64,000 bases of DNA, from assembly GCA_002049455.2 (NCBI GenBank), contig KV919014.1:1-64000 (forward strand), in the 5' to 3' direction. The position numbers were made by a program, and so were the translations under genes. Under the pieces are notes generated by a model. It had not been told where the DNA came from and did no database searches. It worked only from the letters and a program-made list of their open reading frames with translations. Positions 6,710 through 47,171 of this stretch are shown one piece after another (the stretch's first letter is position 1; the number at the start of each line of letters is the position of its first letter). This stretch comes from Porphyra umbilicalis. Its lineage: Eukaryota > Rhodophyta > Bangiophyceae > Bangiales > Bangiaceae.

Positions 6710-6840
6710 ATCGTCACTGCCCGCAGACAGGCCCATCCATCCCCATCCAAGCCCATCCCCCATCCAAACCCGATTCCGTTGGGCGTTTTTGACCCTTCTG
6801 GGAGACCCCGCATTTCCCATCCAAACTCGGTTTGGATGGG
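6710..6840 (+). repeat. Element A left terminal region
   Basis: The terminal inverted repeat at 6710-6740 is followed by five CCATCC boxes and then a 25-base foldback, CCCATCCAAAC/GTTTGGATGGG with a 3-base loop (6816-6840). CCATCC clusters recur at the other end and are plausible transposase binding sites. Confidence 0.5.
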
Positions 6841-7494
6841 CTTCCTCGACCGAGGGTCTGTCACAAGTCACTACCTAACTGTGCCGCACGTGCGTTTTGT
6901 GTTTGCCTCGCGCGGCACCGCGGAGGTGGCTCGTGTCCTAATTGGGCCAGCGTTGTCCACGAGACTCGGGTCAGGATGTGGACCGTTCTCTTGGCCCAGG
7001 CTTACAGCAGACTTCATGACTGTGACCGCCCCTCTGCTCTCGCCTTCACCCAGCGTTGTCCTCAACACAGATCGAGTAACACCTTCGCCTCGGTCAGCCA
7101 GGGTGTGGGGCTCCTCTCGCCTTCGTGACGGCCGAGAGCGGCGGGGCTCGCCGCGGTGCTTGAACAATGGGCCTAGGAGTGCTGGAACCCATGAGGGTTC
7201 GTTGCCCGCCAATGACGAGCGTGGCGCGGACGATTGTGAGGACCACTGGGGGGGGAAGGACGGTCGTACTGGTCATGGCATTTGCGGCGGTCATGGTGGC
7301 GAGTGTCGTCAATGCAAACAACACGTGGGTTGGGTTGCTGGTCATTGATGCGGCGGGCCTACTGCCGTCTGGGCGGGGGAGAGGGCGAGCAGGTGGGGGG
7401 GGGCATCTGGTGGGACATATGAGACGACCACTCGTTCTCAGAGAGCTCGGCGGCGGCGGCGCGGTGGCACCAAGTACAAGCACCACGACGCGTT

Positions 7495-10400
7495 TTACTT
7501 CGCATCCCACGAGAAAAAGACATTGAGAAAAAAGCGCATGTCGAGGCGCTCCTGGAGCGGGCTGTCCATTGACGGCAACGGTGCGTCGACTCCTCGGCGA
7601 GCGGCCAGGTCCGCGAAGTCAGGTACCACAAATGCTAACCGCTGGATATGTGCCACTGGCACCAACCTCAGCGTGATGTCCGACGCGTTCTCGGTTGTAC
7701 GCCACTTAAGACGCACACATCCGCGCGCCACGAATGGACACAGAGGCTCCGCCGCCACATGCTCCATCGCGGCCAAGACCACTGCATCGCCCTTCGGTCC
7801 CCGCACGATGGCTCGGAGCTCGCCGATACAGAGCTTGGACCGGTCGCCCCCCGGCTTGTACAAGACGGCATCGTACCAAGGTGCCCCGAGGTAGTTCTCG
7901 ACGGCACGCAAATACTGCTGCACGCGAGAACCGCAATCGAACTCGGCCTGTATTGGCGTGCGGGTCGCAACTCGTACATGGCGGTGCGCAGCCATTTTAA
8001 GTAGCGCCCCGACGTTGGCCAAGTCGGGGCGACCGGCCAACTGGCCAACCGACACTTCGGTCACGTTGTACATCCGCTTCTGCAGCCGCCGCCGCTCTGC
8101 ATCAGTCGTCCGGCCGACGACAGTCGCCCGAGCCGCCTCGGCAGCGTCCACGCCGGCCGCCGTCGACGCCGCACCCGGCCCTATTCTGCCCGCAGCCGCG
8201 ACAGTGCCCCGTGCCGCAGGCCTCGACCGATGCCGTCCCACTGCGCCGTCCGCTGAAGCCGCGCGCATAGCCAGTTCTGCGCTCCAGGCCGCGGCAGCGG
8301 CCTCGTCGGCCTTGGCGTGCCCAGCGACGATCGTCCGCGCGCCGTGGGCGTGGCACACAAGCTCACGGGTAAAGGTACCAAAGTTTCTTGTCGTTCGCTG
8401 ATAGAAGCACTTGTCGGTCTTGTGCTGGCTCTCATTGCTCGCCGTGTTACAATTTCTCATGTTGCCGTGCCACTTGATGGCGTCGGCCACATGACACAGC
8501 AGCTTGTGGATCTTGACCGAGGCAATGTGGCCAAGGATAGGGGTGACGAACTTGTTCACAAAGTTCTTCGCCTGCTCGTCAATGGCCAACCCCTCCGACA
8601 TTGTCATTGGGGGCGGCACCGCCGAGGTCGTTCGACCGGCAATACGGGCATAAAGAACGGCATACTCAGCGAACATGGAGGTAACTGCGACGTGGACGGG
8701 GGTATCCCCCCACACGCTGTGGTACGCTGTCCAGTCGAACACGAAGTTTCGGCCGACCCTGGCAGCGTCATCGTCTCCGTCAGCGTCGTATCCAGCTGCG
8801 TCGGCCGATGCAGCCGCTGCCTCGCGCTCCGCGTCGTGCTCCGCTGCAAAAGAACCGGCACCATCCTCATCGCCAACTGGGCCGAAAAGGCCCGCCACAA
8901 TAAAGGCCAGAATGGCGACGCCGTCGCGCTGCTGCTTTCCTGTGAACACCGCCTGCTTCTCATTGGCTCTCACGATATATCTGCACAGTCATATGGACAG
9001 ACAAGCGTGGATGCCATAGCCACATGTATGGGTCAGATGCACGAATTCGCCGTGATGTGGGAGCGAGAGTTTAAGAGAGCGTGGCGGTAGAAGGCAAACA
9101 GATGGTAGATACAGAACCGGAGACCATGATGCATGAGATGTGCCAACGTACCCGGGTGGTGTCCTGCAAGCTTTGCTCCGTCTGCTAAGGCGGAGCAGCC
9201 GCCGAAAAGCGATCCGCCGCGTTGCCGTTCCAGACCCCGCTGGCGGCTTCTTGCCCTTACATAAATAAGGAAAGACACGTACCAGGCGATGCACGAGCAT
9301 ACGAGTCACTCCCAGATCGAGCACCTGACAAAAAAAGGCAACATAAATGAGGAAGGTAGAACCGCAGGGTAGCATACTGTCAGTGGCTGATGCCAATGCA
9401 AAGCGGTGGGGAGGTCGGTACGGCCGTCAAGAGTGTATTCAAGCGCAGAAGCGAACGTGACAGAAAACGTACATGAAGCACATCGAACCCAATCATCTTG
9501 TAGAGCAGCATTGGCGCCGTACCTAGCCCGGCCATGCCGGCCAAGCCCGGCACGCCGCCTGACGTGGAATCCAGCGCGCCGAGAGCCACGCGCCGTTGGC
9601 GATGCCGTTGTCGCCGTGAGTGCTCGTACGCTTCCAATTGATTGGATAAGGTGTTGATCACATTGCGGTCCTCGGCGTCAACCGCTTGGGCCGCCCCGAT
9701 TGTGTCCACTTTGGCCATGCATGCTGTGCACGGGTGCGCGCATTGTCCGGCCTTCAAGCCCAGCACCGCCCTTTCTTCCGGTTGGTCACAGACGTACAAC
9801 AGCACGCGCGGGAACGCCAACGCCTTTTGCCCATTGACATTCACGCGGAAGCCAATGTGGCTCCGACCGATGACATGCGTGAATGCCGCGTAGATGACCC
9901 GCTGCAGGATCCCGCACCGACGAATTCTGGCTCTCTCGTCCGCCCCTGGCTCTTGGAGCTTCCGCACGATGGGGACATAGGCTACGGTGACCCATTCAAC
10001 TGACTCAGACACGTCGTTGACCAGACGGACGCGAACAGGATACAATTTGTGCGCTGAGAAAAGACGTCACACCAAGGGATTCGGGAAAGAACGGATGTCG
10101 AAAGAGACGCATGTCAGTGGCTGATGGACATAGCGCAAGGCACCACTAGTGGACGCAAGTCGCGCACCAAGCCGTCGCGACGCGGAGCGGCGCGAATGAA
10201 CCGATCCGCCAACGGGCGGCTTACGTACCTCCTGACCAAGACAGCTGGCTACTGTCAGAAAACACATGTAGACCGAGGACGCAGGCGAGCTCCTCCCGCT
10301 CCTTCATCACCAGCTCCTCGCACAACCTGAAGGCGTCACCGTCCATCGGCGTCTCCCGCTGGTCCGTTGGGGGCGCCGGGCCCGCCACTCCGCTCCATAG

Positions 10401-11336
10401 TTGAATGCGGTCCGCCTTCCTTTTCATCAGCTCCCGGATCACCTGCAGCATGTCGCGGAAGTACGCCTCATACGTGACGCCACCCTCAACCAGCTTGACC
10501 TTCTTCCATCCCGCTTCGAGTGCGGCGGCATCCAGGTCGTCCCGCAACGCGTTCTTGAATACAGTAACCGATGGGAACGTATACTTCAGCGTCGCGTGGT
10601 GTCCCGCGTCCTCAGCCATCCCCGCCTTGGTGCGGTCCCAAACGTCTAGGAACTCGTACATAAACTCCTGGTCCCTTTCGGAAAGACCTGCCCCGCCGAC
10701 CTGCAAAACAAACCGCTGGAGCGCGCGTAGGCGCACGGTGTTGAATTGACCGGTCTTGGCGCGCTTGCGGGGTTGGACGAGCGGCTCCGCCCGTCTGGCG
10801 TCGCCGAGAGACTCGTAAAGCGCGCGCACGTGCACGCCTACCGAGGAGTACAAGTACTCGGGAACGGCATCAGCAGCGGCGCCACCACCCTCAGTTGGGG
10901 GAACGAGGATTCGCGTCAGCTCCAAAATTGTACGCAGCTGAGACTCCACTGCACTTTGAGCAGTCGATGCCGAGTCTGACGAAGCCGGCGGCGTGGGCGC
11001 CGCGTCCAAAAATGAGGATGCTACGGAGGGGGGCTCCTCCGAATCGTCGTCTGCTTGGTTGCCGTCTGCATGTCTTTGTCCGCGCATCGCCGCGGCAGCA
11101 CGAACATCAGCCCGTGCAGTCGCCTCGAAACCCACGCCCCCACGTTCCCCATCTCGTGCATTGGAGCCAGCATCGGCTGTCGAAGATTGGCGGGGTGGAC
11201 GGCGCGGAAGCTGTGTGCCGTGGCCGATGAGGCCTCCATGGATTCCGTACTGGTGCCGCCGAATAGACGCAGGGACCTCCGCCTCAAAACCGCACGGGCA
11301 GACAAGAAATGGTCGCCTCGGTGGGATATCCGACAT
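7495..11336 (-). CDS. Plavaka/KDZ-like DDE transposase, four exons, intact (1115 aa)
   Basis: Proposed exons are 11336-10229, 10053-9473, 9324-9152 and 8980-7495. Every intron starts GTACG and ends in AG, and the phases join to one frame of 1115 codons. Residues 13-33 hold a C-x-C...H-x4-H zinc-finger-like motif. 'PVRVRLVNDVSES' (Asp ~383), 'LLYVCDQPEERAVLG' (Asp ~459), the Cys cluster 'QCAHPCTACM' (~474-481) and 'IHKLLCHVADAIKWHG...NESQHK' (Glu ~804) follow the D-D-Cys-E order of Plavaka-type KDZ transposases. Gene start is set by the zinc-finger Met, conserved in element B. The adjoining 'YIVRANEKQAVFTGKQQRDG' block straddles intron 3 and matches the family's wTGkq..a segment. It should act in the nucleus on element ends. 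No stop or frameshift was found. The family name is my recognition, not a database result. Confidence 0.5.
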
Positions 11337-13573
11337 GTTGATACTGCTAAGGGCGGGGCAGTGCCAGCAGATGAGTGGGAAGAGACCATAGACAGAAAAA
11401 AGGAGAAGGACAACCCTAGAGCTTCAGTAGATGAGCATCATTGCAACAAATCAATTCCTAGCGCACACCTAAGCAGTGTTCTCACAGTACAGGCATGCTC
11501 CACCCCTCCGTACGAGCATCAAAGAGCTTACGAATGCACTACCCGCAGGAACGTACCAATAGCGAGGCACAGGGAGCGTGCGCGTAGAGAGTGCGTTGGG
11601 GTGCAATGGTCGGGGTCTGGACGTCTGGTGCTCTCCTTTCTTGACGGACGCAAGTTGCACGGCGAGGCGTTAATCACGCGCCGCGATTCATAGACGGATG
11701 ATGCCAGGAGAGAACTGTGCTCAAATGGCAAGGGCCAGTGAACCCCGCCAAACACTTTGAGGGGCGGGATCCGCAAGACGACAACAGGCATCTGCGAGCT
11801 CCGGTAAAAAGCGGCGCACCAAGCCGCAGAGCGCACAGACACGGCTGAGAGACTGTCAGCCACTGTGAGCGGGCCCGTCAGCAGCAGAATGCTAACCGGA
11901 TACCGCACCTCTCATCTAGATAGGTCCCCACAGACGCGGCCGGGACGGCAGCGCTCGAACTCCTCCACCACCCACGTCCAGCGCGTCCACACGTACCTTG
12001 CCCAAGTAAGGGCGAACAGCTCGACGACAGTGGGCGGGCACCAGATGGCGGCGGGCAACAGAGGCCACACGTTGTGTGAGCCATTGCCGCCAGCAACCGG
12101 GTACTCTGTCGCGCAAGGTGCATGGCGTTAGCCTGCTGCAAGCGGGCGAGTCCATTGTCCCGCGCGGCCGGCGACCCCGGAGATGTGTGGCGAGCACAGC
12201 TGGCGGCGAATGGCAGGGTGCGTGTCGCGTCCGATATGCGCACACACGCCAGGGGGGGCCGTCAGCGGAGGTGGGGTTGCGCGCGGTTGCTGTGACGCGA
12301 CAGAAACAAGGCGTCCCTGCGATCGCTGGTGTGCGACGACGCAGCTCCCCATCCAGAAACCGGCGGATGGGAAAGACCGTGGTCCCCTCCTATCCAACAA
12401 ACGTCCGCCAAGGCCACAATCCGCAAAGAAGCCTCAACTTTGGATCGATCGTGTGCGTGTGGACTGCGTGAATGCAAAGAAACCAATCGTGAAATTAGAA
12501 CGTGGAGTTGTCAAATGCAATTGTGGTCCAGAAACTCCTTCGACTTTCAGCCAACCCCTCCGGTTGATGCATGCACGCCGTTGTTGGTTTTGGCATTATC
12601 AGACAGGTAGAAACTTAGTGGATGGGAGATGTGTTTGCAGATAAGTTAGTTGTCACCGCATTTGGTCGATCGCATTCGATCGACCGGAAATGGAAACGAT
12701 TTAGATGACTCACCGTGTCTGCGCTGCGCGGACGACTCGCGCGCCACCAACGACACGAACGACACAGACACGACGCGCACACGACAGCGGTTGACAGGCC
12801 CTCGCTTTGTCCCGTCGCCCTGGTGCGCGACGCCGCCGATCGCTGGACGGCGTTGTGCGCCCCCCACGTGCCGCGGGCCGCGCCGCCCGCGACCCCTGAC
12901 CCTGCAGTTGTTAAGGTGTTTGCGGCCACTTAGTGCCATTCTGCGTGCTCCCTTGGCTTTTTTCCGGTCGGCTTTGCACAGCGAGCTATCTGCGGGCCCG
13001 CCCGCCGGCTCCCTATCACCGCCCCCCTCCTCCATTTGGCCTGCCGTGTTGTGCGATTCGGCCTTTCCGGCCCTGGTTGATGAGGGTTGGATCTTATAAG
13101 ACCCAGACTGACACGGCCCCCTCTCCCTTTCGCGCCACACTTGGACGACGCGTATGCTTGCATTCTGGCCCTTTTCCCGCCTGGCCGTCGAACGCGCGCT
13201 TTCTGCCCACGCCCACACACGCCCGTGGCAACACCCCGTCCCTGTGCCCCGCACAGCGCCGTTTGCTTTGGCGATTTTCCCACCTTGTGGCGCTGGACCC
13301 GTTTTTTTCATCTCTCAGGGGGGCTCTTGCACGCCCCTTGCGACCCCCCTCTCATTGGCACGGTGCGAGCTGGCCTCTCACCGAAATGGTACTTGAAGGC
13401 GTGTCCAACGGGCTGAGACGTGAGCTGTCTGGTGTCCACCATCTCCCCCGTTCGCAACTGACTTGAGCGATCCGCGCGGCAACGTGCCCCTCTTGTCACC
13501 CCCCCTATCCTCGTTTCCACTGCATCCTGGCTGCTTCCCTCTATTGTGCACGCCGTCCCGCGCTGATTTTGTC
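11337..13573. promoter_or_regulatory. Shared divergent intergenic region of element A
   Basis: About 2.2 kb separates the start of the transposase (minus strand) from the start of the second gene (plus strand). Element B keeps the same gap, 42185-44454. No third gene is supported here. A perfect 9-base stem (GGTCGATCG-CATT-CGATCGACC) lies at 12664-12685. The region should hold both promoters. Confidence 0.5.
13382..13404 (+). promoter_or_regulatory. Candidate core promoter of second gene, element A
   Basis: CCGAAATGGTACTTGAAGGC lies about 190 bases before the proposed start codon at 13574. Element B has CCGAAATGGTACATAAGCG at 44255, about 200 bases before its start at 44455. The surrounding intergenic DNA shows no other alignment I could see. 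The shared box includes a TATA-like ACATAA in copy B. This is comparative evidence only; no transcription start is known. Confidence 0.5.
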
Positions 13574-16414
13574 ATGGTCGGCTACCGTCCCAGCGGGATC
13601 GCCCCGCGTATGTCCGCGGAGGCGACGACACCCGCGTCGCTGGCGGCTTGGGAGCGGGCGCAGCGTCGGCGTGAAGAGATTGAGGACGCAGCGTGGGAGC
13701 AGCGTCGGCTGGCGGACCGTGACGCTGCGGCGGCCGCCCAACTGCGTGCTGCGGCCGCCACCGCTAACTCTCCCCGCTCGACAACCGGGCAGCCGCCGCA
13801 GCTGCACTACCACTTGCCGGGATCGCAAGCTGCAGACGCGCCGGCCGACTTGTCAACACCCCGCCATTCCTTCTTCTGTCCGGCGCCGTCGCCGCCGGTG
13901 GACGCTCCGGGTGCTGCCAGCGCAGCCGTGGGGATCCCTGTCGCAAACCACGTCGACAACCGCGGGCAGCCGCCGTTTCAAGGCCCCGCTGCGCCGCTGC
14001 CTGCTGGCGAGGTCCAGCACGGATCCCAGACTGTCTGGAACCTCGTCGGTAGCCTGCGCCAGCCCGGAGACGGCGGCGTTCCGCACGCGCTACAGCCGAC
14101 CCCGCTCGGGCCCAACCGTTCCGTCCACTTCGGCACGCACGTCAACATCCCGTCGCTGCAGTCGTCGTCGGCCCCGCGAGCTGAGCCAATGAGTGCGCCA
14201 TGGGCCCCTGCCCTTCCATCTGCGTCGCCTGTGGCCGGAGGTGCGTCATCCACGCCCGTTGGTCCGCCGCTGGGACTCTCGTCCGCTGGTATTGTGCTCA
14301 ATTGGACTCCTCCGAGTGCTGCTGCCGCAGCAGTGGCGGAGCCGTGGTCGGCTGCTCAGGTTTCTGACGGACCGTGGACACCTGCCGTGCGGGCGGCGGC
14401 CCCATCTTCCACCGTTGCGTCGGAGACGGAGAAGGCAGCGGCTGAGGCCGCCGCAGCGGCCGTGGAGGCGGCAGCGACGCCGCCGACTGCGTCCCTCTCT
14501 GGGCCTTTCCCGCCTTGCCGCGCCCCCAGTCGTCCACGCGCTGCCGCACAAGCCCGTGGGGCAAACAAGCGGCGTCACGGCAAGACGCCGTCGGTGGTCT
14601 CCACCGCTCCTCCCACAAAAAAGACCAAGACGACAAAGGAAGCGGACGGTGCAACGTGCAACGAGGATGGGTCCGCTGCACCCGACTGCCCGGGCGCGCG
14701 CACGCCCGAGGCAGTGGCAGCTTGGGTCCTGGTGAAGGGGGAGGTGGCCAAGGTCGTGCGTGACAGTAACAAGGCGTTGTGGTCGGCGCTCAAGCAGTCG
14801 ACGGAGCAGATTGAGCACCTCAAAGCGAACACCAACCGCCTCGAGGCACGCGTTGACGCGCAGGGTCAAGGCCACGAGCGCACAGCCATGGCAGTGGCGT
14901 CCGTTCGCCTCGCCGTCAAGAACCTCGGCGCGACGGGAGGCAGCAAGAGAAGCGGTAGCGGAAGCGGTGGGGGGGGCGGCGACATCGAGAGCAAAGCGCC
15001 AGTCAAGGACGAGAAGCCGATGTTTGATCGTGTCTCGACGAAGGCTGCCGCCATGGCGCTGGCTCCCGAAAACGAGGTTAATGCTGCCAAGCTCCGGCGC
15101 CCCGTCCGCGAGGCAGTGAAGCGCCTGGTCGCTACCACCATTGTCTCGCGCGACGTCCTGATGGACACAGCCGTCGCGACGGCGCGCATCAGCGACGAGG
15201 CCATGAAGGTGTTTGGCATGACGCCCGGTGCCGCGCACAGTTACCTGATGGACTTTATCTACTTCCCGTCAGCTACGAAGAATGCGGCTCCCACGCTGAA
15301 GCGGCCGCACACCGTCGTTGTCGCGACCATCTCGCATGCTATGGCTCAACTGCGGGAGTTTGTCCTTAAGCCATACTTCAAGGTCCTCGGGTTCGAGTAC
15401 AACCCGATGTCCCGCAGCAAGGCGAAGAAGTGGTACAAGGACGACAGCTTCCTCACCTCCTACAAAGGCCAGAAGGCCGTTGTGGCCGCCGCCAAGAACC
15501 TGTTCACCAAAATCGGCGGCAGCTCCCGCATTATCAAGGACACGAGCGCGGGCGGCCGCTTTCACGTCGACATGACCGTTGGTCACTACTCGCTGATCGG
15601 AAGCTTCGTCCGAAACGAGTTCGAGATTGCGCTGGGCCACCGCCAGCGCCGCCGCAAGGGCAACGGCAGCGGTACCTACTGCTACTGGGTCGACGAATTC
15701 GCCCATTCCATCAAGCACCTGTCAAAGAATCACAAGGACAACAACATTCATGGCGGCTACCGCATCACGGACTCCATTGACCCCGACATCGTCGTCCGCA
15801 CCGCCACCGGCGGCTGGGTCTTCACCGCACCCGGGGCCTCGTCGCCGGTGCCGGCCGACAATGCGGTCACCGGCAATCTCGCGATGTCTGCTGACCGCCC
15901 CCGCGCGACCAATCGCACGGACGCGGCGTCGCGCCGCCCTTCCACCCTGTCTTCGTTGCCCCCTTCCGGCAGAGCTCGTCACACATCGGCGAGCGCCGGC
16001 GACGGCGTCACCCGCCGACCAGCAACCAAGAGTGCCTCGCCGGTGGCAACGAGAAACTGCCGCGACGACTACGGCGTCGGCGCCGACGATGACGGTCGCG
16101 CCTCCGACGGGATATCGAACCCACCGGCCACGGGTGTCGTGCTCGTACTTGACGACGATGAGGACCATTGTGCCGGGGCGGCGATCATTGGCCTGAAGGA
16201 GGATGGAGCGGGGAGTGACGTGGGGGGGAGTGACGTGGGGGGGAGTGACGGGGTGGGGAGCGACGGGGATGGGAGCGACGGGGACGGGAGCGAGAACGTC
16301 GGCGGCCGCACGTCCACTTCCGCGAGTGTCAACAGTGACACGGATGATGACGACGGGGGCAGCTCTGTCCTCGGCGACGAGGGTGACGCCGACGACGACG
16401 AGGAGGAGGGCTAG
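13574..16414 (+). CDS. Element A second protein, unknown function (946 aa)
   Basis: I do not recognise this family. Start 13574 is chosen because 'MVGYRPSGIAPRMSA' aligns with element B 'MYGNAPSGWAPRISA'. The first ~300 residues are Ala/Pro/Ser-rich. A basic patch with 'NKRRHGK' and 'TKKTKTTK' (possible nuclear signal) precedes a helical stretch, 'AAWVLVKGEVAKVVRDSNKA' to 'NRLEARVDAQGQGHERTAM', that looks coiled-coil. The best conserved part follows (roughly residues 490-740): 'QLREFVLKPYFKVLGF', 'KKWYKDDSFLTSYKGQKAVV', 'FVRNEFEIALG', 'WVDEFAHSIKHL' and 'GGYRITDSIDPDIVV'. The tail is acidic, with GSDVG/GSDGD repeats. A nuclear DNA- or chromatin-binding partner of the transposase is a guess from context. 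Confidence 0.5.
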   Translation: MVGYRPSGIAPRMSAEATTPASLAAWERAQRRREEIEDAAWEQRRLADRDAAAAAQLRAAAATANSPRSTTGQPPQLHYHLPGSQAADAPADLSTPRHSFFCPAPSPPVDAPGAASAAVGIPVANHVDNRGQPPFQGPAAPLPAGEVQHGSQTVWNLVGSLRQPGDGGVPHALQPTPLGPNRSVHFGTHVNIPSLQSSSAPRAEPMSAPWAPALPSASPVAGGASSTPVGPPLGLSSAGIVLNWTPPSAAAAAVAEPWSAAQVSDGPWTPAVRAAAPSSTVASETEKAAAEAAAAAVEAAATPPTASLSGPFPPCRAPSRPRAAAQARGANKRRHGKTPSVVSTAPPTKKTKTTKEADGATCNEDGSAAPDCPGARTPEAVAAWVLVKGEVAKVVRDSNKALWSALKQSTEQIEHLKANTNRLEARVDAQGQGHERTAMAVASVRLAVKNLGATGGSKRSGSGSGGGGGDIESKAPVKDEKPMFDRVSTKAAAMALAPENEVNAAKLRRPVREAVKRLVATTIVSRDVLMDTAVATARISDEAMKVFGMTPGAAHSYLMDFIYFPSATKNAAPTLKRPHTVVVATISHAMAQLREFVLKPYFKVLGFEYNPMSRSKAKKWYKDDSFLTSYKGQKAVVAAAKNLFTKIGGSSRIIKDTSAGGRFHVDMTVGHYSLIGSFVRNEFEIALGHRQRRRKGNGSGTYCYWVDEFAHSIKHLSKNHKDNNIHGGYRITDSIDPDIVVRTATGGWVFTAPGASSPVPADNAVTGNLAMSADRPRATNRTDAASRRPSTLSSLPPSGRARHTSASAGDGVTRRPATKSASPVATRNCRDDYGVGADDDGRASDGISNPPATGVVLVLDDDEDHCAGAAIIGLKEDGAGSDVGGSDVGGSDGVGSDGDGSDGDGSENVGGRTSTSASVNSDTDDDDGGSSVLGDEGDADDDEEEG
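16203..16293 (+). repeat. Short in-frame tandem repeats in second protein tail
   Basis: GGGAGTGACGTGGGG-type 15-base units repeat about six times with drift, encoding GSDVG then GSDGD. The region adds to the acidic tail of the element A second protein. Element B has a shorter equivalent (GSVVGGSVVGGS). Confidence 0.5.
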
Positions 16415-16879
16415 GTGTGTGGACATTGAGAGCGCGTGCGCTGTTGTGGGGGCGTGATGACAGCCGGTAGGGCTGCTTGTTCTTTGATGGTTGCTTGCTT
16501 TTGGGTGGCTGCTCCCGTCGCCCGTGCTGGTCATTGACATCACCGCTCGCATGCACTCCGTACAGACACAACCGAGTGTCCTGGCGTACCTGGTGCCGTA
16601 CAAAGCCTACCAACAGCAGCCGTGGAATAGCACGCGCAAATGTGCACGCACCTGGTCTCTTACTACCGGGCGAGCTGTCAGCATCTTGTTGTCTCTTCTG
16701 CACGCACGGCATTGGCTGAATCTGATGGCCAAGCGTCCAATGAGGCCAAACTTCTTCAACGGCCAGGCCCCTGTGCTTCTGAAACGGCCGCGCCTGCCGA
16801 GGATCACACGATGTCCCTCTCGCGGGCCTCGCGAGTCAGCACACTCAAGGGCGGAACTGGTGACTACGCCATCGGCTGG

Positions 16880-17029
16880 AAACGCCCATCCAAATCCCCA
16901 ACCATACCCCGTCCAAACCTGCGTTGGTTGGGAGGAAACGCCCATCCATCCCCATCCAAAAGCCCATCCATCCCCATCCAAAGCCCATCCAAAACGCGTT
17001 TGGATGGGCAGTCTGCGGGCCGTGACGAT
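16880..17029 (-). repeat. Element A right terminal region
   Basis: A cluster of CCATCC boxes ends in a foldback (GCCCATCCAAAACGCG then TTTGGATGGGC, 16983-17009), directly next to the terminal repeat GTCTGCGGGCCGTGACGAT ending at 17029. Reverse-complemented, it matches the left end over about 30 bases with a few changes. Confidence 0.5.
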
Positions 17030-19064: not shown

Positions 19065-21568
19065 ATGGGGGATGTTGAGGGCACCCTGTTTGGGAGCGCC
19101 CTCCTACTCAACATCATCTACTGGATCATCACCGTCGCCCAGTATGCCACGTCTGGCGTTTTCATGCTCTTCCTCGCCCACAAGGCGCTGATGATCATCA
19201 CCTACCCCTTTATCACGCGCAAGGACCCTGTGCCCGGGGTGCTGCCAGAGGACCGCCCGTTTGTCAGCATCCAACTGCCGTGCTATAATGAAGCCGCCGT
19301 CATCCGGCGGGTCATTGACGCGGCGTGCAGCCAGGAGTGGCCACACGACCGCCTCGAGGTGCACGTGCTTGACGACTCGAACGATGAGACGGTACGTTGG
19401 TGGGGAGGGACAGAGGGGCTGAGGGGGGGGGTTCGAACGCTGCCGTGCCTGTGATTTGTGACCGCCTCGCTGATCTCGGTCGATTCGCTCACACCCCGAC
19501 CACTTCGATTGGCTCGTCCCGCTGCGCCACCCCTTCCTCACCTCCCGCCTGCCTGCAGACGAGCATTGCCCAAGATGCTGCCGCCTACTGGCGCTCGGTC
19601 GGCGTCGAATGCCGCGTCATCCGCCGCCCCATCCGCACCGGCTACAAGGCCGGCGCCTTGCAGTGGGACATTGACCATGAGGTGCACCCCGACTCGCGCT
19701 TCTTCCCCGTCTTTGACGCCGACTTTGCGCCGGCGCCCGACTGGCTGCCAACGGCCATGCCCTACTTTTTCGACGCGGCGGGCGTCGACCAAACCAACGT
19801 GTCGATGGTCCAAGGGCGCTGGATGCACCTCAACGCGCGGCGCAACCCGCTGACGCGGCTGCAGGAGCTCATCCTCAACGGCCACTTTTACATTGAGCAG
19901 GTGTTTCGCAGCCGCACGGACCGGCCGTGGAACTTTAACGGCACCGCCGGCGTCTGGCGGCGGGCGGTCATTGAGGCGGTCGGCGGGTGGGAGCACGACA
20001 CCATCGTGGAGGACAGTGACCTCAGCATCAAGTGCTTTGACGCCGGCTACCGGGGGGTGTACGTGCGGGACCTCGGCGCCCCGTCCGAGCTCCCCGTGTC
20101 CATTGGGGACTATCGCAGCCAGCAGACGCGGTGGGTCAAGGGCATGGGGCAGGTGTTTGCCAAGCGTTGGCGCACCGTTCTGACGTCGCGGGACACCAAC
20201 GCCAAGCAGAAGATTGAATTCCTCTTCCACAAGCTCCCCTCCCTCACCTACCTCGCGACAGTCGTCTTCCAGCTCTACTTCCCGCTCGCCATCTTTGTGG
20301 CCGTCCCCTTTTCCTACCCGTGGCTCGGCGTCAACCTCGGCGCGCTCGCTGTCTTTTGGCTCTTTTACACGCTGACGCTGTACCGCACGCTCGGCCTCCT
20401 CCGCGCGCTCGCCGCCCAGTGGCGGGTCCTTGGCGTCATGGTGCTGTCGTGGGGCATGGCGCCGCTGCTGTCGGCGGCCTTCCTCGAGGGCCTCTTCTCC
20501 CACGACGCCACCTTTACGCGGACGCCCAAGCGGGCGGCGACCGTCGACACCGAATCGGAGCGTACCTGGTCTATGAGCAGCGCGGGCGTGCGGCCGCCTT
20601 GCGCGGGCGCCCGCACGTACGGGCCCGACGAGGCGGGGCTGGCCGAATACGTCCACGGGGGGGACCTCGACACGCCCGGGGGGGTGCCGTCGCTCGGCGC
20701 CGGCGGGCGGGTGCTGCTGTCGCCCGCGTCGCTCGCCGCCGCCGCCGCCGCGTCGACCGTGGCGCGTCCCGGGGAGGTGGCTGCCGGCGGCGCACACCGC
20801 GCCGCCCGCATGCCCCGCTGCGTGACAGTCGCGTCTGGCGGCGTCGGCGAGGCGGCCGGCGACGTGGCCTTTGCCGGCACCCCCGTCGACGGCGACGCCT
20901 TTGACGAGGACTCGACGAGCTACACGGTGCGGACGGATACGGCCGAGACGGTCACGTCGCTCGCGTCGGGCGCCACCTCGTCGGACGAGTTGGGGCCGCC
21001 GACGACCGCCGCCACGCCGACCACGTCGGTGGCGGCGGGCTCACTGTCGTCGGGGGCGTCGGCCAAGGCCGCCGCCGCCGACGGGGGCGCGCGGGCGCGG
21101 TCGCGAGCGCGGGCGCCCATTTGGACGACCAAATTTTCCGTGTTGCCCCTCTTTGAGGCCGCCCTTGCGGCGTGGTCGGCGTTTGCGGCCGTCGCGGCCA
21201 TTTTCGGGCTCGCGAGCGCGCCGATCCTGGACCCGGTGGATGGGGCGGCCAACACGGACCGCGCGTGGCTCGTTGCGGTCGTCATTTTTGGGGTGGGGTC
21301 TGCGGTCGGCCTCGGGTGGAACGCGTCGTCGTCGCTCGGGCGGATGGGGTGGGGCTTCCTCTGCGACGCCGGGCGGGGGCTCGGGCGCGGCGCCGCCGCC
21401 ATTTCCGGGTGCTGTTGCTGCGGTCGCCGCCGCCGCCGCCGCAGCGTACACCCGTCCGCCGCGTCGGACAATGGCAGCGTGCCGGGGGAGGAGGTGAGCT
21501 GGGACGCTGCGCGGCCAGCCGCCGACGTGGGTGCGCCCGGCCCCGCCGCCGTACCGGCGGCGGTCTAG
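19065..21568 (+). CDS. GT2 membrane polysaccharide synthase, CSLA/mannan-synthase-like, two exons (778 aa)
   Basis: Exon 1 is 19065-19391 and exon 2 is 19559-21568; the 167-base intron runs GTACG...TGCAG and keeps frame (109 + 669 codons). Start is the first ATG before a transmembrane pair (residues ~12-46). Family 2 glycosyltransferase residues are all present: Asp in 'VHVLDDSND' (~103), DxD in 'FPVFDADFAP' (162/164), 'IVEDSDLS' (Glu260-Asp261) and Q-x-x-R-W in 'SQQTRWVKG' (297-301). Three more membrane helices follow (~336-418). A low-complexity Ala/Ser/Thr tail then leads to two further hydrophobic segments. Such enzymes build beta-linked glucan or mannan from UDP-glucose or GDP-mannose at Golgi or plasma membrane. 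The class is firm; the sugar is not known. CSLA-like mannan synthase is my best guess. Confidence 0.5.
19392..19558 (+). other. Intron of the GT2 gene
   Basis: The donor GTACGTTGG follows codon Thr109, and the acceptor CCTGCAG precedes ACGAGCATT. Splicing joins 'DDSNDET' to 'TSIAQDAAAYW' in one frame. The GTACG donor matches the donors inferred in the element A transposase. Confidence 0.5.
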
Positions 21569-38177: not shown

Positions 38178-41100
38178 TCACAAGCGCCACAATCCCGGAA
38201 CGCACGCGCTGTGTCGGCTGCCATTTTGGGGGGGGGGGCGGTGGTACGTTGCAGGGTAGTAGAATTGGGAGGCCGGGGTCGGCGTGGTCGTGAGGGTGGC
38301 ACTGGAAAGCGGCACCATCTTTTTCTTCAAATCCCAGGGAAAAAAGACGTTGAGAAAGAAGCGCATCCAGGCGCTCCGTGAGTGGGCTATCCATTGAGGG
38401 CAGGTCCGCGTCGACGCCTCGGCGGGCAGCCAGGTCAGCAAAATCAGGGACAACAAAGGCGAGCCGACGCACGTGCTCTACGGGCACAAATCGCAGCGTC
38501 AGGTCCGTCGCGTTGTTGACGGTGCGCCATTTAAGACGCACACAGTCCCGCGCGGCGAATGGGCAGAGCTCCTCGGCTGCCACTGCCTCCATCGGCACCA
38601 AGACGAAAGCATCCCCCTTGCGTCCCCTGACGATGGCTCGCAGCTCGCCAACGCACAGCCTTGCCTCATCGCCGCCGAAGTGGTACAACACGGCCTCGTG
38701 CCACGGGGCGCCGAGGTAGTCTTCAGCAGCGCGCAGCTGCTGCTGCACACGCGTGCCGCACTCGAAGCGCGCCAGTAAAGACGTGCGAGTAGCTACACGC
38801 ACGTTGCGGTTGGCGACCATGTTCAACAGCTGCCAGACATTTGCTAAGTCTGGGCGGCGTGCGAAGTCTCCGACAGACACCCGAGCGACGTTGTACACCC
38901 GCAGTTTCTGCTTCCGCGCCCGCTTTGAGGCAGCGGCCACGGCGGCCGCAGCAGCAGCAGAAGCCGCCGCCGACGTCACCGCCGCCACCACCCCGCCACC
39001 GGGTGCCGGCGCGGCACCAACTGCCGCACCGGCCGCTGCCGTTGCCCGGCCGCCAGCGGCTAATGCGTCTCTGGCTGCATCCCGCGTAGCTTCCGCTGCA
39101 GCTGCAGTGGCCGCCCGCGCAGCCAGCTTGGCCCGCCAAGCGGCGACAGCGGCCTTGTCGTCCTCCGTGTGGCGGGCAAGGATGCCCCACGCGCCGTGCG
39201 AGTGGCGCACCAGCTGCCGAGTGAACGTGCGTGCGTTTTTGTTTGTCCGCGCATAAAACGGCTTTTTAACCTTGTGCTCGCTTTCGTTGTCAGCGGTGTT
39301 ATCATTGCGGAAGTTGCCCTGCCACTTGATCGCATCAGCGACATGGCAGAGGAGCTTGTGAACCTTCACCGACGCAATGTGACCGGAAATAGGTGTCACG
39401 AACTTTTTGACAAAGTCTTTGGCCTGCGCGGCAATCTTGTGCCCCTCCGTCATTGTCATGGGCGGCGGCACAGCGGAGGTCGCCCGCCCGGCTATGCGGG
39501 CGTACAGCACGGCGTACTCTGCTGACAAAGAAGTGACGGAAACGTGCACGGGGGTGTCCCCCCACTCCTCCTTGTAAGCTGCCCAGTCGAAGACAAAGTT
39601 CTTGGACACCATAGCCGCTGCGTCGTCGTCACCATCCGCGTCGTAGGCGGCCACGTCTGTCGCCGCCTCCGCCACCGCACGCTCCGCCTCGTGGTCGGAT
39701 ACGAACACGTCGTCGGCATCGTCGTCTCCAAGCCGGCCAAAGAGGCCGGCTAAAATGAACGGCACAATAGCAACACCGTCCCTTTGTTGCTTGCCAGTGA
39801 AGACAACCTGCTTCTCGTTGGCGCGCACGATGTAGATGCAGATCCAGCATTGAAGAGAGGTAGGTGCAGGAGAGCGGGTGGACAGACGGGTCAGACACGG
39901 GAATCACTGCATAAAAGCGACGATGAGCAATTGGGAGTACCAGTGCAGGGTACAAGCCACGGGAAAAGAGGCCGCACACAAAGGATAATAGCGACGCGGC
40001 GCACACGCAACGTACCCTGGGGGAGTCGTGCATGCCTTACTTCTTCTGTGTAGACGGAGAAGGCGCTTGATGGAGATGCGTCGGGTCCTCGTAACCGAGC
40101 CAGCTGGAGGCTTTTTCCCTCTGCATAAGTAGGGAAAGACACGTACAAGCCGGTGCACGAGCAATCTGGTGACGCCCAGATCCGAAACCTAAGACAGAAT
40201 CAAGAAGCAAGAGAAAGAAGAGCTCGAGGGCGATGCACACGATTAGTCTCGGAACGCCAAGGCAATAGAGACATGGTGTTGGCTCAAGCACTCAAAAGAT
40301 GGAATGCAAACAAGAAGAAGGATGACGTACGTGCAGCACAAAAAATCCTATCATATTGTACAACAGCAAGGGTGCCGAGCCGAGGCCGGCCATGCCGGCA
40401 AGCCCCAAAACGACGCTTAACGTCGAGTCGAGGGCGCCGAGCGACATCCGCCGGTGGCGCTCCCGCTGGCGCCTCGAGTGCTCGTAGGCCTCAACTTGGT
40501 TGGTGAGGGTGTTGATGACATTGCGCTCCCCTGCATTGAGCGCCTGAGGCGCCCCGACCGACTCGATCTTGGCCATACAGGAAGTGCATGATACGCACAT
40601 TGGCCGCCCTTCAGGCCGAGCACCGCGCGCTCCTCCGGCTGGTCGCATATATACAGGAGGACGCGGGGAAAGGCTAGCGCCTCCTGGTGACCGACTGTGA
40701 CTCGGAAGCCAATATGAATACGGCCAATCACGTGCGTGAAGGCCGTGTAGAGCACCCGTTGCAAGATCCCGCACCGTCTAATCCTGGCTCTCTCGTCCGC
40801 CCCGGGCTCTTGAAGCTTCCGCACAATGGGGACATACGCGACAGCCACCCATTCGACGGTGCCCGAGACATCGTTGACGAGGCGCACACGTACAGGTACA
40901 GTTTGTGGGCTGCGCGGAGATTGGCAACGAGCGCAATACAATCAAGACAGAAGAAGGGAGTGCATCCGCCCAGTGAGACACAGGATCCCGACGGCGACTC
41001 CCTAACTCGCTAAGCAGAGACAGTGCGTCACGTCTCAAACCCTCCGCAAAACGAAACAACGTCCCACCAGACCAAGATAACTGGCTGCTGTCCGAAAAAG

Positions 41101-42184
41101 TGTGTAGGCCGAGCACGCAGGCCAGCTCCTCCCTGTTCTTCATGGCCAGGTCCTCGCATACTTTGAAGGCATTCCCGTCCATGGGTGTTTCCCGGCGGTC
41201 GCTGGGCGGCGCCGGCCCAGCCATGCCGCTCCAAAGCTGGATGGAGGCACCCTTCTTCTTTAAGAGCTCCCTGATCACCTGCTGCACGTCGCGGAAGTAC
41301 CCCTTGGAGGAGACGCCACCCTCCACCAACCGGACCTTCTTCCACCCCGCGCTCAACGCGGCGTCGTCCAGGTCGTCGCGCAGCGCCTGCTTAAAAGCAG
41401 ACACAGACGGGAAGTGGTGCCGCAGCGTCGTTTGGTGGCCCGCGTCCTCCGCCATTCCGACTTTGGTGCCGTCCCAGATGTCTAGGAACTCATACAGGAA
41501 CTCTTGGTCCTTGGTAGAGAGGCCCGCCCCGCCCACGCTCAAAACAAACCGCTGCAGCGCGCGAAGCCGCACAGTATGAAATTGTCGAAGCTTGAAGCGC
41601 TTGCACCACTTGACGACGGGCTGGGCGCGCCGCGCGTCGCCGAGCGTCTCATAGAGCACCCGCACGTGCAGGCCCACGGAGGAGTAACTGTACTCGGGGA
41701 CTGCGTCTGCAGCGGCGGCGGCGCCTTCCTTGTGGGGCACCAATATGCGCGTCAGCTCCAACAGCGTCTGGAGCTACGACTCCACGGCGCTGCAGGCGGT
41801 CGATGCCAACTCGGAGGACGCGTGCGAGGATGGAAACGGCGAGTGCGGCGACGTGGGCGGCGCGTCCGACTCGTCGTCGGCCTCGTTGCCGTCCTCCAAG
41901 CCAGCACCGGGGCGGTCTGTACCCGCACCGGCACCAACACGCCCCTGACGAGCCCTGCCTGCATGAGTCCCACCGGCCGCACCAGAACGGCTTCCGTCGC
42001 CCAACCCCTCCTCGCCATCGGATGGTTGGTCGTCCGACGCCGCCTCGCGGGGACGACGACCAGGGTGTTGCGTGTGGTGGCCGGTCAAGCCGTTGTTGAT
42101 GCCATACTGGTGCCGACGGAGCTCTACCAGGAACTGGGCCTCGAAGCCACAGTCACAAACCAGAAATGGGCGGTCCGGGGGCAC
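38178..42184 (-). pseudogene. Element B transposase, decayed
   Basis: It aligns with the element A transposase from the zinc-finger Met ('FLVCDCGFEAQFLVELRRHQ') to 'RFFLNVFFPWDLK'. Lesions seen: an in-frame TAG after 'STACSAVES' (~41774), a one-base loss at 'HKLYPVRV' (~40908), a frameshift at the Cys cluster 'GLKGGQC' (~40600), a frameshift at 'SPLTERLD' (~38390) and loss of the normal stop. The final zinc-finger His is Asn. 'VSKNFVFDWAAYKEEWGDTP' and 'KVHKLLCHVADAIKWQG' with 'DNESEHK' remain well kept. Exon junctions match element A (a GTACG donor after 'TPPG', then 'YIVRANEKQ'). Many third-base differences in 'KGKKPPAGS' show past selection on the protein. Confidence 0.5.
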
Positions 42185-44254
42185 GCCCGAAATGACGTGT
42201 GGCCTGGGGGTTCAATAGGAGGGACAGACGAGCGAAGATATGCGAGTGAGAGCAAGACGGGAGGGAGTCAGAATGAGAGCATCACAGGTTGAAGACAAAG
42301 AAGCACAAAAAACATCCTTCGGCTTCTCTCAACACGCATACAGTACGTGAGAGGGGCAACAGCAGCCGGCTCATAGGGGCACGTACGATGGAAAATGATG
42401 CGGCTGGCTCTGTGGAAGCTGTGACTTGAGGCCCGAGCGTGGGTCCACCGACACGCACCGTCTCCCCACGCCAATTGTACGCGGCTGGAGCGGTCCAGCG
42501 CCTGGCGAGGGACCCGGTTGCGGCGCAAACCCTGGAGCAAAGCGCACCCGGCTGACACAAAATGCCTATCCGGTACCATCCAGGAGGCAAGCGAAAGGCG
42601 GTCAGCGCCCATTATGCCGCAGCGCAGCACGAAACGCCGAGCCCCACAGCACGCAGCCAAAGACAAACGGCTGTCCACTGCCAGGGCCACGAGTAGCAGC
42701 CGGATAGATTCCTTCCTCTACAGCAATCGGGACAGGCCGGCGGTAACCCGTCAGCCGTGGCCAACCTTGCTGCCCCAGGAGGTACCCTTTGTCGGCAGAG
42801 AATACGTACATTGGTGAAAAAGGGAGGCGAATCAGACGAGGGTTTAAGAGACACTGCCAAGGCTGGGTGCGCCGGCGCCCAAGAGAGGGACCAATCAGCG
42901 TCCGTTCAGGCCAGCATCGTCGTCATCATGACATGATGGCTTACCAGGGATGCGGGACGCACTGGCCGCAGAGGGTCTCTCGTTGCGTAGTAGCTGAAAA
43001 TTGGACGTACGTACCCCGTATGCAGTGTGGAACAAGATGGTGGGGCGGGGGGGCACTCATTGATCAGAGGAGGGCCAGAGGTCTCCGCACGGCAGCGCCG
43101 CACAATGACGCGACACGTCACGGCGTGCACAACCAGCGGAGGTGAGGACGGCAGACACCATCCACAGACACTCGGATCAGAAGGGGCAGCGTCGAGTCCG
43201 ATCCAAAACGCGCCCAAATTCTTCGAAGAGAGCGACATTGAACCGATCGTTCGATTTTAGGATAGAATAGTCGCGGGCTTGCGTGTTAACTCCATTGACA
43301 CCTTGCCTTCGGGGAAGTTTTTGTGACCTCAAGCGGCCACTCATGCCCCTGGCATCCTGCTCCAAGTCGCCCTGTTTGCATTGCTGTAGACTGCGCTCTG
43401 CAATTGAGCGAATTCGGACACTTCCCGCCCTTCGATCGATCGAACTGTGTTCAGCAGACCCGCGCCGCCGCGCAAAGTCTTGCGATGACAGCGCAGCGTG
43501 ACGGCAGCGCGCCGGCTCATACGCGCCCGCGGCCAGACCCGCGGGCAAGTGGCTTTATCAACTTCCCCCCTCGCACACGGTCACCTAGTGGTCCGATCAG
43601 CTCCTCTCTGGCTACGGCCCTCGGAACGTGGTGTCCCCCCCCCACCTCAATTGGCCTGGCTTCCAAGCCGCGCACTCTTGCGTCGTCTTCGCGTGCTTCA
43701 GGGTTCTTGGTGCCCTCCTATATTCTCCCTTTCTCTGGTGGTTTTTCCGGTTACGCTGTGCGGGCAACTTATCTCACTTGCATTGACCAACCCGGTGTGA
43801 CCTCTCCTCCACCCCCCCGTGTCGGGTTGGTTTACTTCCGCGTTTTACGGCCGTCTTTGCACGGTAGACTCGGCCCCAGCAGCCCACGCCGCCGTTTGCA
43901 GTGCCTGGCTTGCCGCCAGTTGCGGCCGGGCACGCTTTCGACCCCCCCGGCCGCACAGGCGACCGCAGGGTATCCCCTCTCTGGGACCCTGGTGGCGGCC
44001 TTTGCCTGAGCTTTTTCGCGCCAAGTGTCCCTAGGAGCGTTCTCTCACTTCAACCACTTGCCCATTAGGGCGCTGCTTGCCCTTGCCTCTTGCGGATTCA
44101 CTTGGTTTGGACAATTCCCGCCCTCTGGGTCTGCGCGCGCTCTTTCACCCCCTCAGTGTCGTCCCCTGTCGCACCGCCTCGGAGTGCGCCTGCCGGTCGC
44201 ACCAACGGTAAGCGGGCGCAGATCGCGACCGGGCCGTCCGCTCCATCGATGCTT

Positions 44255-44454: not shown

Positions 44455-47171
44455 ATGTACGGGAACGCTCCCAGCGGGTGGGCGCCTCGGATATCCGCGT
44501 CGGCATCGACGAATGAGTCGGTTGCTATCTGGGAAGCCCAGCAGCGCCGCCTGGGCCTGCTCGGCGGCGCCACCGTTGCCGCTGCTCACCCCGTCAACGG
44601 CGACGCTGCCGCTGTCGACGCTGCTCCCCGCGGCAGCGGTGAGGAGCCGCCGCAGCTGCACCAGGACATGCCGGGGTCGCAAGTGGTCGGCCATTCTGCC
44701 ACAACGTCGTCGCTCGCCCACACCGCCATCTTTGTGCCCCACTTCCAGCCGGTGAACGCTGCATTGGCAGCGACCGCAGCCAAGAGTGTGCTCGACCGGG
44801 ACTGCGTAGACCATCACGAGCTCGACGCGTTCCGCGGCCCACCTGTGCCCCCGCCCAACCGAATTGTGCCGTTTTGCAGCACACCTCTCAACGCCCCGCC
44901 GCTGCCGTCGTCGTCACAGCCGCGCCCTACGCCAATGACTCCGAGGCCGCCCGCTTCTGTGCATGCTGCTGCTGCAGCGGCATCCCCGCCTTCTCCCGTC
45001 AGGGCGTCTTCGTCTTTTGTGCCTGAAGCTCCGCAGGGTCGACATGCGGCCGAGCTGTCGGCAACCGGGTTGCCGTGGACCATATCGCCGGTGCTATCTA
45101 CCGCTCGGGTCGATGTGCCGTAAACGCCTCTGCCTCTGACACCTTCAGAGCTGGTATCCGACGCGGCGGCGGCAGAGGCGGCGGCAGTGGCCGTTTCGGT
45201 GCCCCCCTCACCTGCGGTAGCGTCTTTCGCTGGGCCATTTCCGTGCCCTCCCGTCCCCCGTCGTCGTGGCCAAGTTTCCGGTCGCGTCAAGCGGGCCCCG
45301 GCCAAGGCGCCGGCCGCTCAGTCGGCCGCCCCGCCCAACAAGAAAAAGAAGACGGCCGCTTCGGCGGGTGCCGTCAAAACCGCCGCTGACGCTGCTCCCA
45401 GCAGTGACCCTGTGACCTCCGCTGCAGCCGCCACCTCGCCTGAGCTCGCGCGCGCGGCGGTGGCGGCCTGGGGCCTGGTGCGTGGAAAGGTGGAGCACGT
45501 CGTGCACGAGCGGAACAAGGTTCTCGGGGCGGCCATCAAGGAGTCCGCCGCAATGCTTGAGCACCTACGTGCCAACGCCGTCCGCCTTGAAACGCGGGTG
45601 GCCGCGCATGGTCAAGGCCATGAGCGCACGGTCATGGCCGTCGCGTCCATGCGGGTGGCCGCCGAGCACGGCGGCAATGCTGGCAGATCCCACAAAGAGG
45701 GCCGTGAGGCACGCGGCAGTGGCCGCAGCGGCGGCGGCAGCGGCAGCAGTGGCGGAGGTAGCGGCAGCAGCGGCGGCGACGGTAGCGGGCGCGTCAACAA
45801 TTTCATGCCGGTGGTGAAACGTGAAGACGTCAAAGCGGCTGCCATGGCGCTCGCACCCGAGAACGAGGAGAAGGCCGGCCAGCTGCAGCGCCCGATCCGC
45901 GCTGTGGTCAAGAAGCTCCTCACCAACGCCACCGTATCCCGTGACATCCTGATGGATGCGGACGCCCAGTCGGCCGTCAGGTTGTCAAGGCGTTCTCAGT
46001 GCCGGCTGACGCCGCCCACACCTACCTCATGGGCCCCATTTGGTTTTCCGCCGATGGAGGCCAGCGGAAGAAGAAGCAGCCCATTGCAAAGATCACCACG
46101 ACCATACCGCACACGGTCGCGCAGATCAGAGAGTTTGTGCTCAAGCCATTTTTCGATGTGCTCGGCTTCAGTTGCAACCCGATGCCCGTGGCGAAGGCGA
46201 AGAAGTGGGAGAAGAAAGACGCGTTCCTCACCTCCCATGAGGGCGACAAGGCCATCGTGGCGGCTGCTAAGAAGGTTTTTACGAAGATCGGCGGCGGCGC
46301 CCGTGTCGTGCAGGACCGCGCGGGCAGCCACCGCTTCCACGTCAACATGCAGGGCGGCCACCATGCGCTGTTTGCGTCTTTTGTGCGGAACGAATTTGAG
46401 ATTGCCCTCGGCCGTCGCAATCGTCGCCGCGGCGGAAGCGGCGGCGGCGGGTACCAACACTGGGTGGACGAGTTCACCACCTCCATCAAGCACCTGCGCA
46501 AGAACCATGCGGACAAGAAGGTCCACGCAGGCTACCGCATCACGGACGCCATCGACCCCGACGTTGTCGTGCCCGCGGGTGGCGGTCTCTGGGCCTTCGC
46601 AGCGCCTGACAAGGAGCCAGAGAACTTGTCGTCGGACGGCAACACGCCAATCTCGTCGCTCACGACGGCACTCCGCCCTTCCCGCTCGACCAAAAGCACG
46701 GCCAGAGACCCCGATGGCCCGGCAGCACATGGCGCCGCGGCGGAAGCGTCCCCGCTGGTTGATGACAGCGGTATTGACGAAGAGGGCGGCCAGGCGCCGC
46801 CGCGTACCGCGGTCGTCATTGTGGGCGACAATGACTCGGACTTTCGCACGGGAGCGGCGTTGATTGGAATCAGAGGGGAGGGGGCATGCGAAGACGGAGA
46901 CGGAAGCGTAGTGGGGGGCAGCGTTGTAGGGGGGAGCGTCGCTGCGGGGAACGACGAGGATGAGAGCAAGGAAGTGGGCGCGCGCACGTCGTCCAGCGAC
47001 TCCGATGACTCGGATTGCAGCCTGGACGGCTCTGTCGGCGATGACGAACAGGAGGGGCGCTACCGATGTTGCTGTGCAGTGCACGCGTGCCGTATCAACA
47101 GCCGCTGGTGCTGCTGTTTTGCTGATTTGTTTGCTTTGGTTTGCTTCGTGTTTGGCGGCGTCGTGACGTGA
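44455..47171 (+). pseudogene. Element B second protein, decayed
   Basis: Homologous to the element A 946-aa protein: 'MYGNAPSGWAPRISA' at the start, 'VAAWGLVRGKVEHVVHERNK' in the helical part, and 'QIREFVLKPFFDVLGF', 'FVRNEFEIALG', 'WVDEFTTSIKHL' and 'AGYRITDAIDPDVVV' in the conserved domain. There is one in-frame TAA at 45121-45123 and one frameshift between about 45,960 and 45,990. The acidic tail follows in the new frame. A Gly/Ser linker (~45,715-45,790) replaces a shorter one in copy A. The conserved C-terminal domain is much better kept than the N-terminus, so it is probably the functional core. Confidence 0.5.

Follow-up and report, generated by a model that had tools for sequence, protein, structure and literature searches.

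The first 64,000 nucleotides of contig KV919014.1 of the red alga Porphyra umbilicalis (the window) hold two gene pairs, elements A and B, in which a transposase gene of the Plavaka kind lies divergent to a second gene, here called the partner. This layout raises the question of whether the partner belongs to the transposon and, if so, what it might do there. Our results show that transposase and partner form one mobile unit and that the partner was kept through deep divergence, as an initial annotation of the window had proposed and as copies throughout the genome bear out. Element A (6712-17027; 10,316 bp) is a two-gene DNA transposon of the cut-and-paste type that appears to be complete. 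It is of the Plavaka kind, in the CACTA/EnSpm-like clade, has AT on either flank and belongs to a large P. umbilicalis family. The matching ends, the four-exon transposase and the divergent 946-residue gene of that annotation stand; the outermost AT, which it had placed within the element, is the target duplication.

In a search of the genome (83.8 Mb in 665 contigs), the partner core (a 231-residue query) gave 85 matches and transposase exon 1 gave 113, counts that are lower bounds and include loci that are partly non-independent. An exon-1 match lay within 12 kb of 65 of the 85 partner matches, and all 65 pairs were divergent, while chance would give about 3 of 85 in any orientation (113 x 24 kb / 83.8 Mb x 85). 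The homologues thus mostly adjoin a transposase rather than lying away from one. When Pfam Plavaka hits were added and the range was extended to 15 kb, 18 of the 85 remained unpaired, and one convergent and one tandem pair were gained. Conversely, a partner match was found within 15 kb for 70 of the 113 exon-1 matches and for 43 of the best 50. Among the best 14 exon-1 matches, three (C489, C195 and C111) had no partner match; the 6 kb read beside the C195 transposase hold a partner remnant (residues 306-501). C93 and C575 are 99.9% alike including the flank, and C550 and C7 also have a common flank, so that some loci were probably assembled twice.

The two genes also diverged together. Identity matrices of exon 1 and the partner core correlated over 23 pairs with r = 0.96, and with 0.70 among the 10 A-like pairs and 0.98 among the remaining 13; none of 9999 permutations reached these values in any of the three comparisons. 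The trees of exon 1 and partner core agree in most of their groups and differ within the A-like one. Purifying selection acts on both genes: the Nei-Gojobori ratio of non-synonymous to synonymous substitution rates (dN/dS) was 0.16-0.37 in nine diverged pairs for the partner from the long helix to the C-terminus, 0.16-0.29 in all seven pairs when this piece was cut to the region with the core, and 0.12-0.19 in six diverged pairs for transposase exon 1, where one very close pair gave 0.34.

A second Plavaka lineage shows the same layout. Of the 123 genomic places with a Pfam Plavaka hit, 27 have an A-family exon-1 match no more than 3 kb away. One of the others is the C234 element, whose transposase is 34% identical to that of element A over residues 214-569; a 466-residue open frame lies divergent to this transposase on the other strand. 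This 466-residue protein gave 106 genome matches, merged into 67 loci, of which 40 were divergent, two tandem and one convergent to a Plavaka hit within 12 kb. Aligned with hhalign, the two partner families matched at 94.1% probability (expectation value, E, 1.3e-7; 188 columns) and still at 83.7% (E 8.1e-6) with a single sequence on one side, while two controls with the transposase alignment gave 0.3% and 0.6%. As judged from these profile comparisons, the second-lineage divergent gene and the A-type partner are remotely homologous. Among the 123 Plavaka places, 40 have the second-lineage partner in divergent orientation and 15 the A-type partner. The two-gene layout is older than the family of element A. 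The C234 element measures 10,352 bp, has the ends CGTCGG..CCGACG and is bordered by AT on both sides; its relative C230 has identical ends in other flanks.

Counted with the outermost AT, the inverted repeats of element A are 24 nt long and 88% identical (6710-6733 / 17006-17029). We rejected the AT as a part of these repeats on three grounds: the empty sites of related copies contain a single AT, the two abutting element pairs beside the C300 and C331 copies have one AT in common, and copy C100 carries AG on both sides. The outermost AT on each side is therefore the target duplication, and the element has the extent given above, with the termini CGTCA..TGACG that are also found in its relatives. 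An 8-bp or a 3-bp target duplication was likewise sought in the flanks and rejected for 2 bp. The end-search pattern included AT, so AT at ends found in this way is partly built in. A cleaner test is offered by C100. Its right end was set at the limit of homology to the sister copy, and AG comes next; the left end, read afterwards, was preceded by AG, which confirmed the predicted duplication. AT flanks the sister, C149, at either end, and C100 and C149 agree at 98.9% in each of the two stretches compared.

Ends like those of element A recur at other copies in unrelated flanks, which settles the initial annotation's concern that they might be peculiar to this copy. Empty sites were found by searching with joined flanks, 40 of 186 candidates being scored: the flanks of a 2.8-kb copy (C177) hit 17 places with 91-96% identity, a small copy (C300) gave a single place with 98%, and another small copy (C224) gave 22 places with 100%. 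Six of these 40 places were read, and all were gapless across the junction, with AT reading AC in one of the two C177-type places. For the full two-gene copy on C224, the left flank ends in ..AGCAAGC and the right one begins with CATTCC.., and three places read show the uninterrupted repeat AGCAAGC AT CATTCC; the unit including the partner was therefore inserted there with a 2-bp duplication, and this copy now has a stop in the partner core. The insertion target on C224 (L010, an 88-bp repeat) is itself present at no fewer than 22 places at 100% identity. C93 and C235 are 99% alike in the partner region and have different flanks. The family was recently active.

The spliced transposase of element A (minus strand, four exons, 1115 residues, no internal stop, all three introns GTACGT..CAG) matches Pfam Plavaka (PF18759) with 37.0 bits against a cut-off of 26.3 (E 3.1e-9, residues 263-505), the sole Pfam family at E<=1. 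The order D, D, C(2)C, H(3-4)H, E characterizes the CACTA/EnSpm-Mirage-Chapaev-Transib group including Plavaka, to which Plavaka was shifted from KDZ (Kyakuja-Dileera-Zisupton) (Kojima 2025, PMC12730594; here and below, cited papers stand for the parts of their text at hand). Read by eye, element A's transposase shows the same order (SDSSQ 360, CDQPEE 458, CTAC 478, HKLLCH 779, NESQH 803). The label "Plavaka/KDZ" of the initial annotation has to be narrowed accordingly: only Plavaka is matched, and Kojima 2025 separates the two groups. We rejected KDZ membership because the transposase has no match to Pfam KDZ (PF18758) and because the target duplication is 2 bp here versus the 8 bp known for Zisupton. 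KDZ domains occur at 28 places elsewhere in the genome and at none in this contig, and represent a separate transposon group.

Compared with the two published Plavaka classes, the termini are an exact fit to neither. The PlavakaA termini TGT..ACA are absent from element A and its relatives, and the PlavakaB termini CATCA..TGATG, one base off CGTCA..TGACG (PMC12730594), from element A, its relatives and the second lineage; the 2-bp duplication (empty sites; AG/AG at C100, AT/AT at C149) agrees with the 2 or 3 bp of PlavakaB. Related transposases are encoded in the Pyropia genome, as 4 of 18 transposase matches are so named. The named records among the partner homologues are from P. umbilicalis only; as part of the candidates was scored, absence from Pyropia does not follow.

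The partner has no Pfam family over the cut-off (best E 0.18 for element A's own protein), which extends to enzyme domains, Myb/SANT and the TET/JBP dioxygenases, and no match by sequence among the solved structures in the PDB (best E 0.34). A coiled-coil-type Pfam family was found below the cut-off (E 0.008) in 3 of 21 partner relatives. The initial annotation had assigned the conserved core to the C-terminal ~250 residues; such a core exists, but lies at residues ~500-741, preceded by a conserved stretch at ~385-445 with a predicted long helix and followed by an acidic tail of ~190 residues.

What distinguishes the ends of the elements is their arrays of short repeats. CCCATCCA occurs 17 times in the window compared to 2.0 expected (none of 100 shuffles reached 17); element A holds 14 of these, among them 12 near its two ends. 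All 21 copies counted are enriched in CCATC over the right-hand terminal 250 bp, with 2-10 occurrences versus 0.4-1.0 by interior density; these copies come from 30 partner loci, the others being duplicates or lacking a placed end. The letters that follow CCATC differ between groups, with CAAA at 28 of 58 sites in the A-like group, GAAA at 8 of 16 in the C550 group, words starting with AG at 17 of 21 in the C149 group, GGAA at 5 of 16 in C103/C238 and GAAG at 3 of 5 in C262. By clade, the end-repeat words are CCATCCAAA, CCATCGAAA, CCATCAG.. and GTACTG, and the ends also contain palindromes (CCATCCAAACTCGGTTTGGATGG at 6817 in element A, CCATCGAAAGCAAGCTTCGATGG in C262). The one second-lineage copy counted has no CCATC in the terminal 250 bp on either side and GTACTG seven times in the terminal 500 bp versus 0.49 per 250 bp inside. 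Clustered short repeats stand at both ends in element A and in C234.

Seven small gene-less copies of 976-1149 bp align to element A essentially at the ends only, over 134-188 bp on the left and 115-262 bp on the right, at 93-98% identity for the closest two and 69-90% for the others. Their middles are unrelated to element A; one is common to five copies and another to the other two. As the small copies keep only these ends, the terminal stretches are probably all that is needed in cis. Some of them lie next to other elements: L055 (C224:82300-83540) is 30 bp from the right end of the full C224 element, L053 (C395:28340-29590) is 8 bp from another element's end, and L056 (C300) and L058 (C331) abut other elements with one AT common to both. 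These positions suggest a taste for AT beside existing elements.

For the function of the partner we favor, at a probability of roughly 60%, a TnpA-like role in which it would bind the subterminal repeats as an oligomer and pair the ends for the transposase. Both genes would be read from the common 2.2-kb divergent region; the partner, forming an oligomer via its long helix, would coat the short, partly palindromic repeats found in the terminal ~160-250 bp on either side, bring the two ends together and may also keep them open, whereupon the transposase would cut at CGTCA and insert at a 2-bp target, usually AT. The steps from coating to cutting follow the analogy with En/Spm, and we infer that the partner rather than the transposase is the repeat binder, that it forms oligomers and what its binding brings about. 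The divergent pairing, the empty sites, the correlated divergence, the purifying selection, the second lineage, the clade-dependent end words and the ends kept by gene-less copies count in favor of this explanation, as do the basic core and acidic tail of the partner. That the arrays are confined to the ends and kept by gene-less copies favors a role in transposition without proving it.

Several observations weigh against this role. No exon-1 match lies within 12 kb of 20 of the 85 partner matches (many are short fragments, and two, on C277 and C69, are near contig starts), no partner match within 15 kb of 43 of the 113 exon-1 matches, and C489, a near relative of element A, has no partner in the 6 kb read beside its transposase. 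In the second lineage, 24 of the 67 partner loci are without a Plavaka hit within 12 kb. Of all 123 Plavaka places in the genome, 68 are without a detected partner of either type. The partner dN/dS is 0.28, 0.89, 0.90 and 1.72 in four close or frame-shifted pairs. The C52/C73 and C365 groups have no dominant end word, and the C159-like copy L033 has only two CCATC. AlphaFold models of the partner reached a mean predicted local distance difference test score of 57 and 62, too low to name a fold, and structure searches with them gave nothing above noise; we do not use this lack of a structural match as evidence. Finally, the transposase itself could read the repeats.

Other roles have to be considered. 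We regard as unlikely a role in sequence-specific anti-silencing, as played by VANC of the Arabidopsis VANDAL elements, which have a Mutator-like transposase. A partner of this type would bind the arrays and remove repressive marks outside the transposition machinery, and many of the same sequence patterns would be expected: VANC, a diverging second protein, binds short tandem-repeat motifs that differ between related elements and change together with the protein (PMC5735166), much as the clade words and the diverging partner do here. A JmjC gene in another transposon of the window (see below) also makes anti-silencing cargo plausible in this genome. However, VANC, for which anti-silencing was shown, has motifs in introns and upstream regions as well (PMC5735166), whereas the arrays here are found only at ends and are kept by gene-less copies, and the partner has no enzyme domain over the Pfam cut-off.

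Somewhat less probable again is that the transposase alone reads the end repeats and that the partner has another task, such as regulating expression or directing the complex to its targets. As the transposase also diverges by clade and the identities correlate, the end code tracks both proteins equally. However, the only other candidate reader that we noticed is an N-terminal Cys/His stretch of transposase exon 1, presumably finger-like and without a Pfam match, and the selection on the partner and its retention in two lineages would then be left without a simple reason. That the partner is a captured or neighboring host gene, a passenger by accident of proximity, to which the 20 unpaired matches would lend some color, is very improbable in view of the 65 of 65 divergent pairs, the correlated divergence, the purifying selection, the empty site of the whole unit and the remote homologue in the second lineage.

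The TnpA-like role has its closest parallel in maize En/Spm and plant CACTA elements, in which a transposase is accompanied by a second protein, arrays of short repeats within a few hundred bases of the termini vary from subfamily to subfamily and gene-less derivatives keep the ends; TNPA recognizes the subterminal repeats, TNPA and TNPD are both required, and TNPA and TNP1 share little similarity (PMC2613891). In contrast to the two divergent genes here, TnpA and TnpD arise from one transcription unit by alternative splicing (PMC2613891). The transposase is of another family, with CACTA termini and a 3-bp duplication versus CGTCA and 2 bp, and we liken the systems by layout and not by TnpA sequence. 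Harbinger/Nuwa elements likewise combine a transposase with a separate DNA-binding protein (PMC12730594), as may the elements here if the partner binds as proposed; their transposase is unrelated, and the partner here lacks their Myb/SANT match. The fungal PlavakaA/B elements of Agaricomycetes share the Pfam Plavaka match, the order of catalytic-type residues with H(3-4)H and the 2-bp duplication, but here the host is a red alga and, by Pfam, no TET/JBP dioxygenase is encoded by the second gene; the portion of PMC12730594 at hand mentions no other partner protein for Plavaka.

The initial annotation knew of no Plavaka element with this partner, and we also found no description of such a two-gene element in the open-licence literature, which is part of the whole literature. 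At somewhat less than even odds, the red-algal Plavaka elements would form a two-protein branch, with a DNA-binding partner family that has been required since before the two Porphyra lineages split and is matched to the end code of each clade, and that would be a counterpart of TnpA, and perhaps also of VANC, that arose independently. The Plavaka group, described in fungi, would be extended by a red-algal layout with two genes; a set of Porphyra "hypothetical proteins" is explained as transposon parts. As one genome unites several clades of the partner family, whose end words differ, with copies that are recent, relic or gene-less, co-change of protein and site is directly testable.

Element B contains the same gene pair in the same orientation as element A, diverged to 64-67% identity in exon 1 and 46-56% in the partner core. 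The initial annotation had built its case for co-retention on this pair; the pairing and its divergence hold, but element B is a relic and for this reason weak evidence alone, so that we rejected it as main evidence and let the genome-wide copies carry the case. The ATCGTCAC/GTGACGAT motif was not found around it (35001-41000 and 46501-50000). Among the 25 longest of 114 inverted-repeat pairs around element B, one spans its genes (36662-36689 / 47136-47163, 28 nt, 79%); the left arm lies inside a G+C-rich tandem array, and the pair has no CGTCA end. The features of both elements are collected in Table 1.

Table 1 Features of elements A and B, in window positions (those of element B are approximate)
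Feature	Position	Strand	Basis or remark
Left target duplication copy, AT	6710..6711	.	One AT in empty sites of related copies; AG on both sides of one copy
Left terminal inverted repeat, CGTCAC..	6712..6733	+	
Left terminal stretch with CCATCCAAA array	6712..6872	+	161 bp common with gene-less C1 and C395 at 96-98%; motif counts
Transposase exon 4 (H(4)H, last E) and stop	7495..8980	-	
Transposase exon 3	9152..9324	-	Frame agrees with homologue consensus
Transposase exon 2 (second D, C(2)C)	9473..10053	-	Pfam Plavaka match spans exons 1-2
Transposase exon 1	10229..11336	-	Reaches first catalytic-type D
Intergenic region of the two divergent genes, presumed site of both promoters	11337..13573	.	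Gene models
Partner gene, 946 residues	13574..16414	+	Divergent from transposase; genomic relatives
Predicted long helix, conserved, coiled-coil-like	14714..14923	+	Part of partner
Partner core, residues ~500-741, basic	15071..15796	+	dN/dS 0.16-0.29 in comparisons containing the core
Acidic tail of partner, ~190 residues	15854..16411	+	Net charge -24
Right terminal stretch with CCATCCAAA array and palindrome (16985-17007)	16780..17027	+	~250 bp common with gene-less C1 and C395 at 93%
Right terminal inverted repeat, ..GTGACG	17006..17027	-	
Right target duplication copy, AT	17028..17029	.	As for left copy
Element B transposase remains	38341..42193	-	Stop in exon 1
Element B partner remains, frame broken	44455..46988	+	A stop and a frame change

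The window contains further mobile and host sequences. A CACTA-type transposase gene (59504-62059, plus strand; Transposase_21, 29.4 bits, cut-off 28.6) is convergent with a JmjC-domain gene (62301-63908, minus strand; 51 bits, cut-off 24). Of 53 merged tnp2 loci genome-wide, 50 lie no more than 6 kb from a JmjC locus, and all 50 pairs are convergent with a median gap of 270 bp. This looks like a CACTA transposon carrying its own JmjC oxygenase, comparable to the TET/JBP cargo in fungal transposons; on this pairing, too, nothing was found in the open-licence literature. Searches of the window with Rfam gave nothing over the gathering scores. Pieces of a Copia-type retroelement with gag, gag-pre-integrase, integrase core and SH3-like domains lie in two adjoining frames at 30374-32820 (plus strand), and ~110 copies of a 19-bp G+C-rich tandem unit (52326-54410) fall inside a 901-residue open frame that has no Pfam match. 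An open frame at 19397-21568 (plus strand) matches family-2 glycosyltransferases with 61 bits and is probably a host gene adjoining element A.

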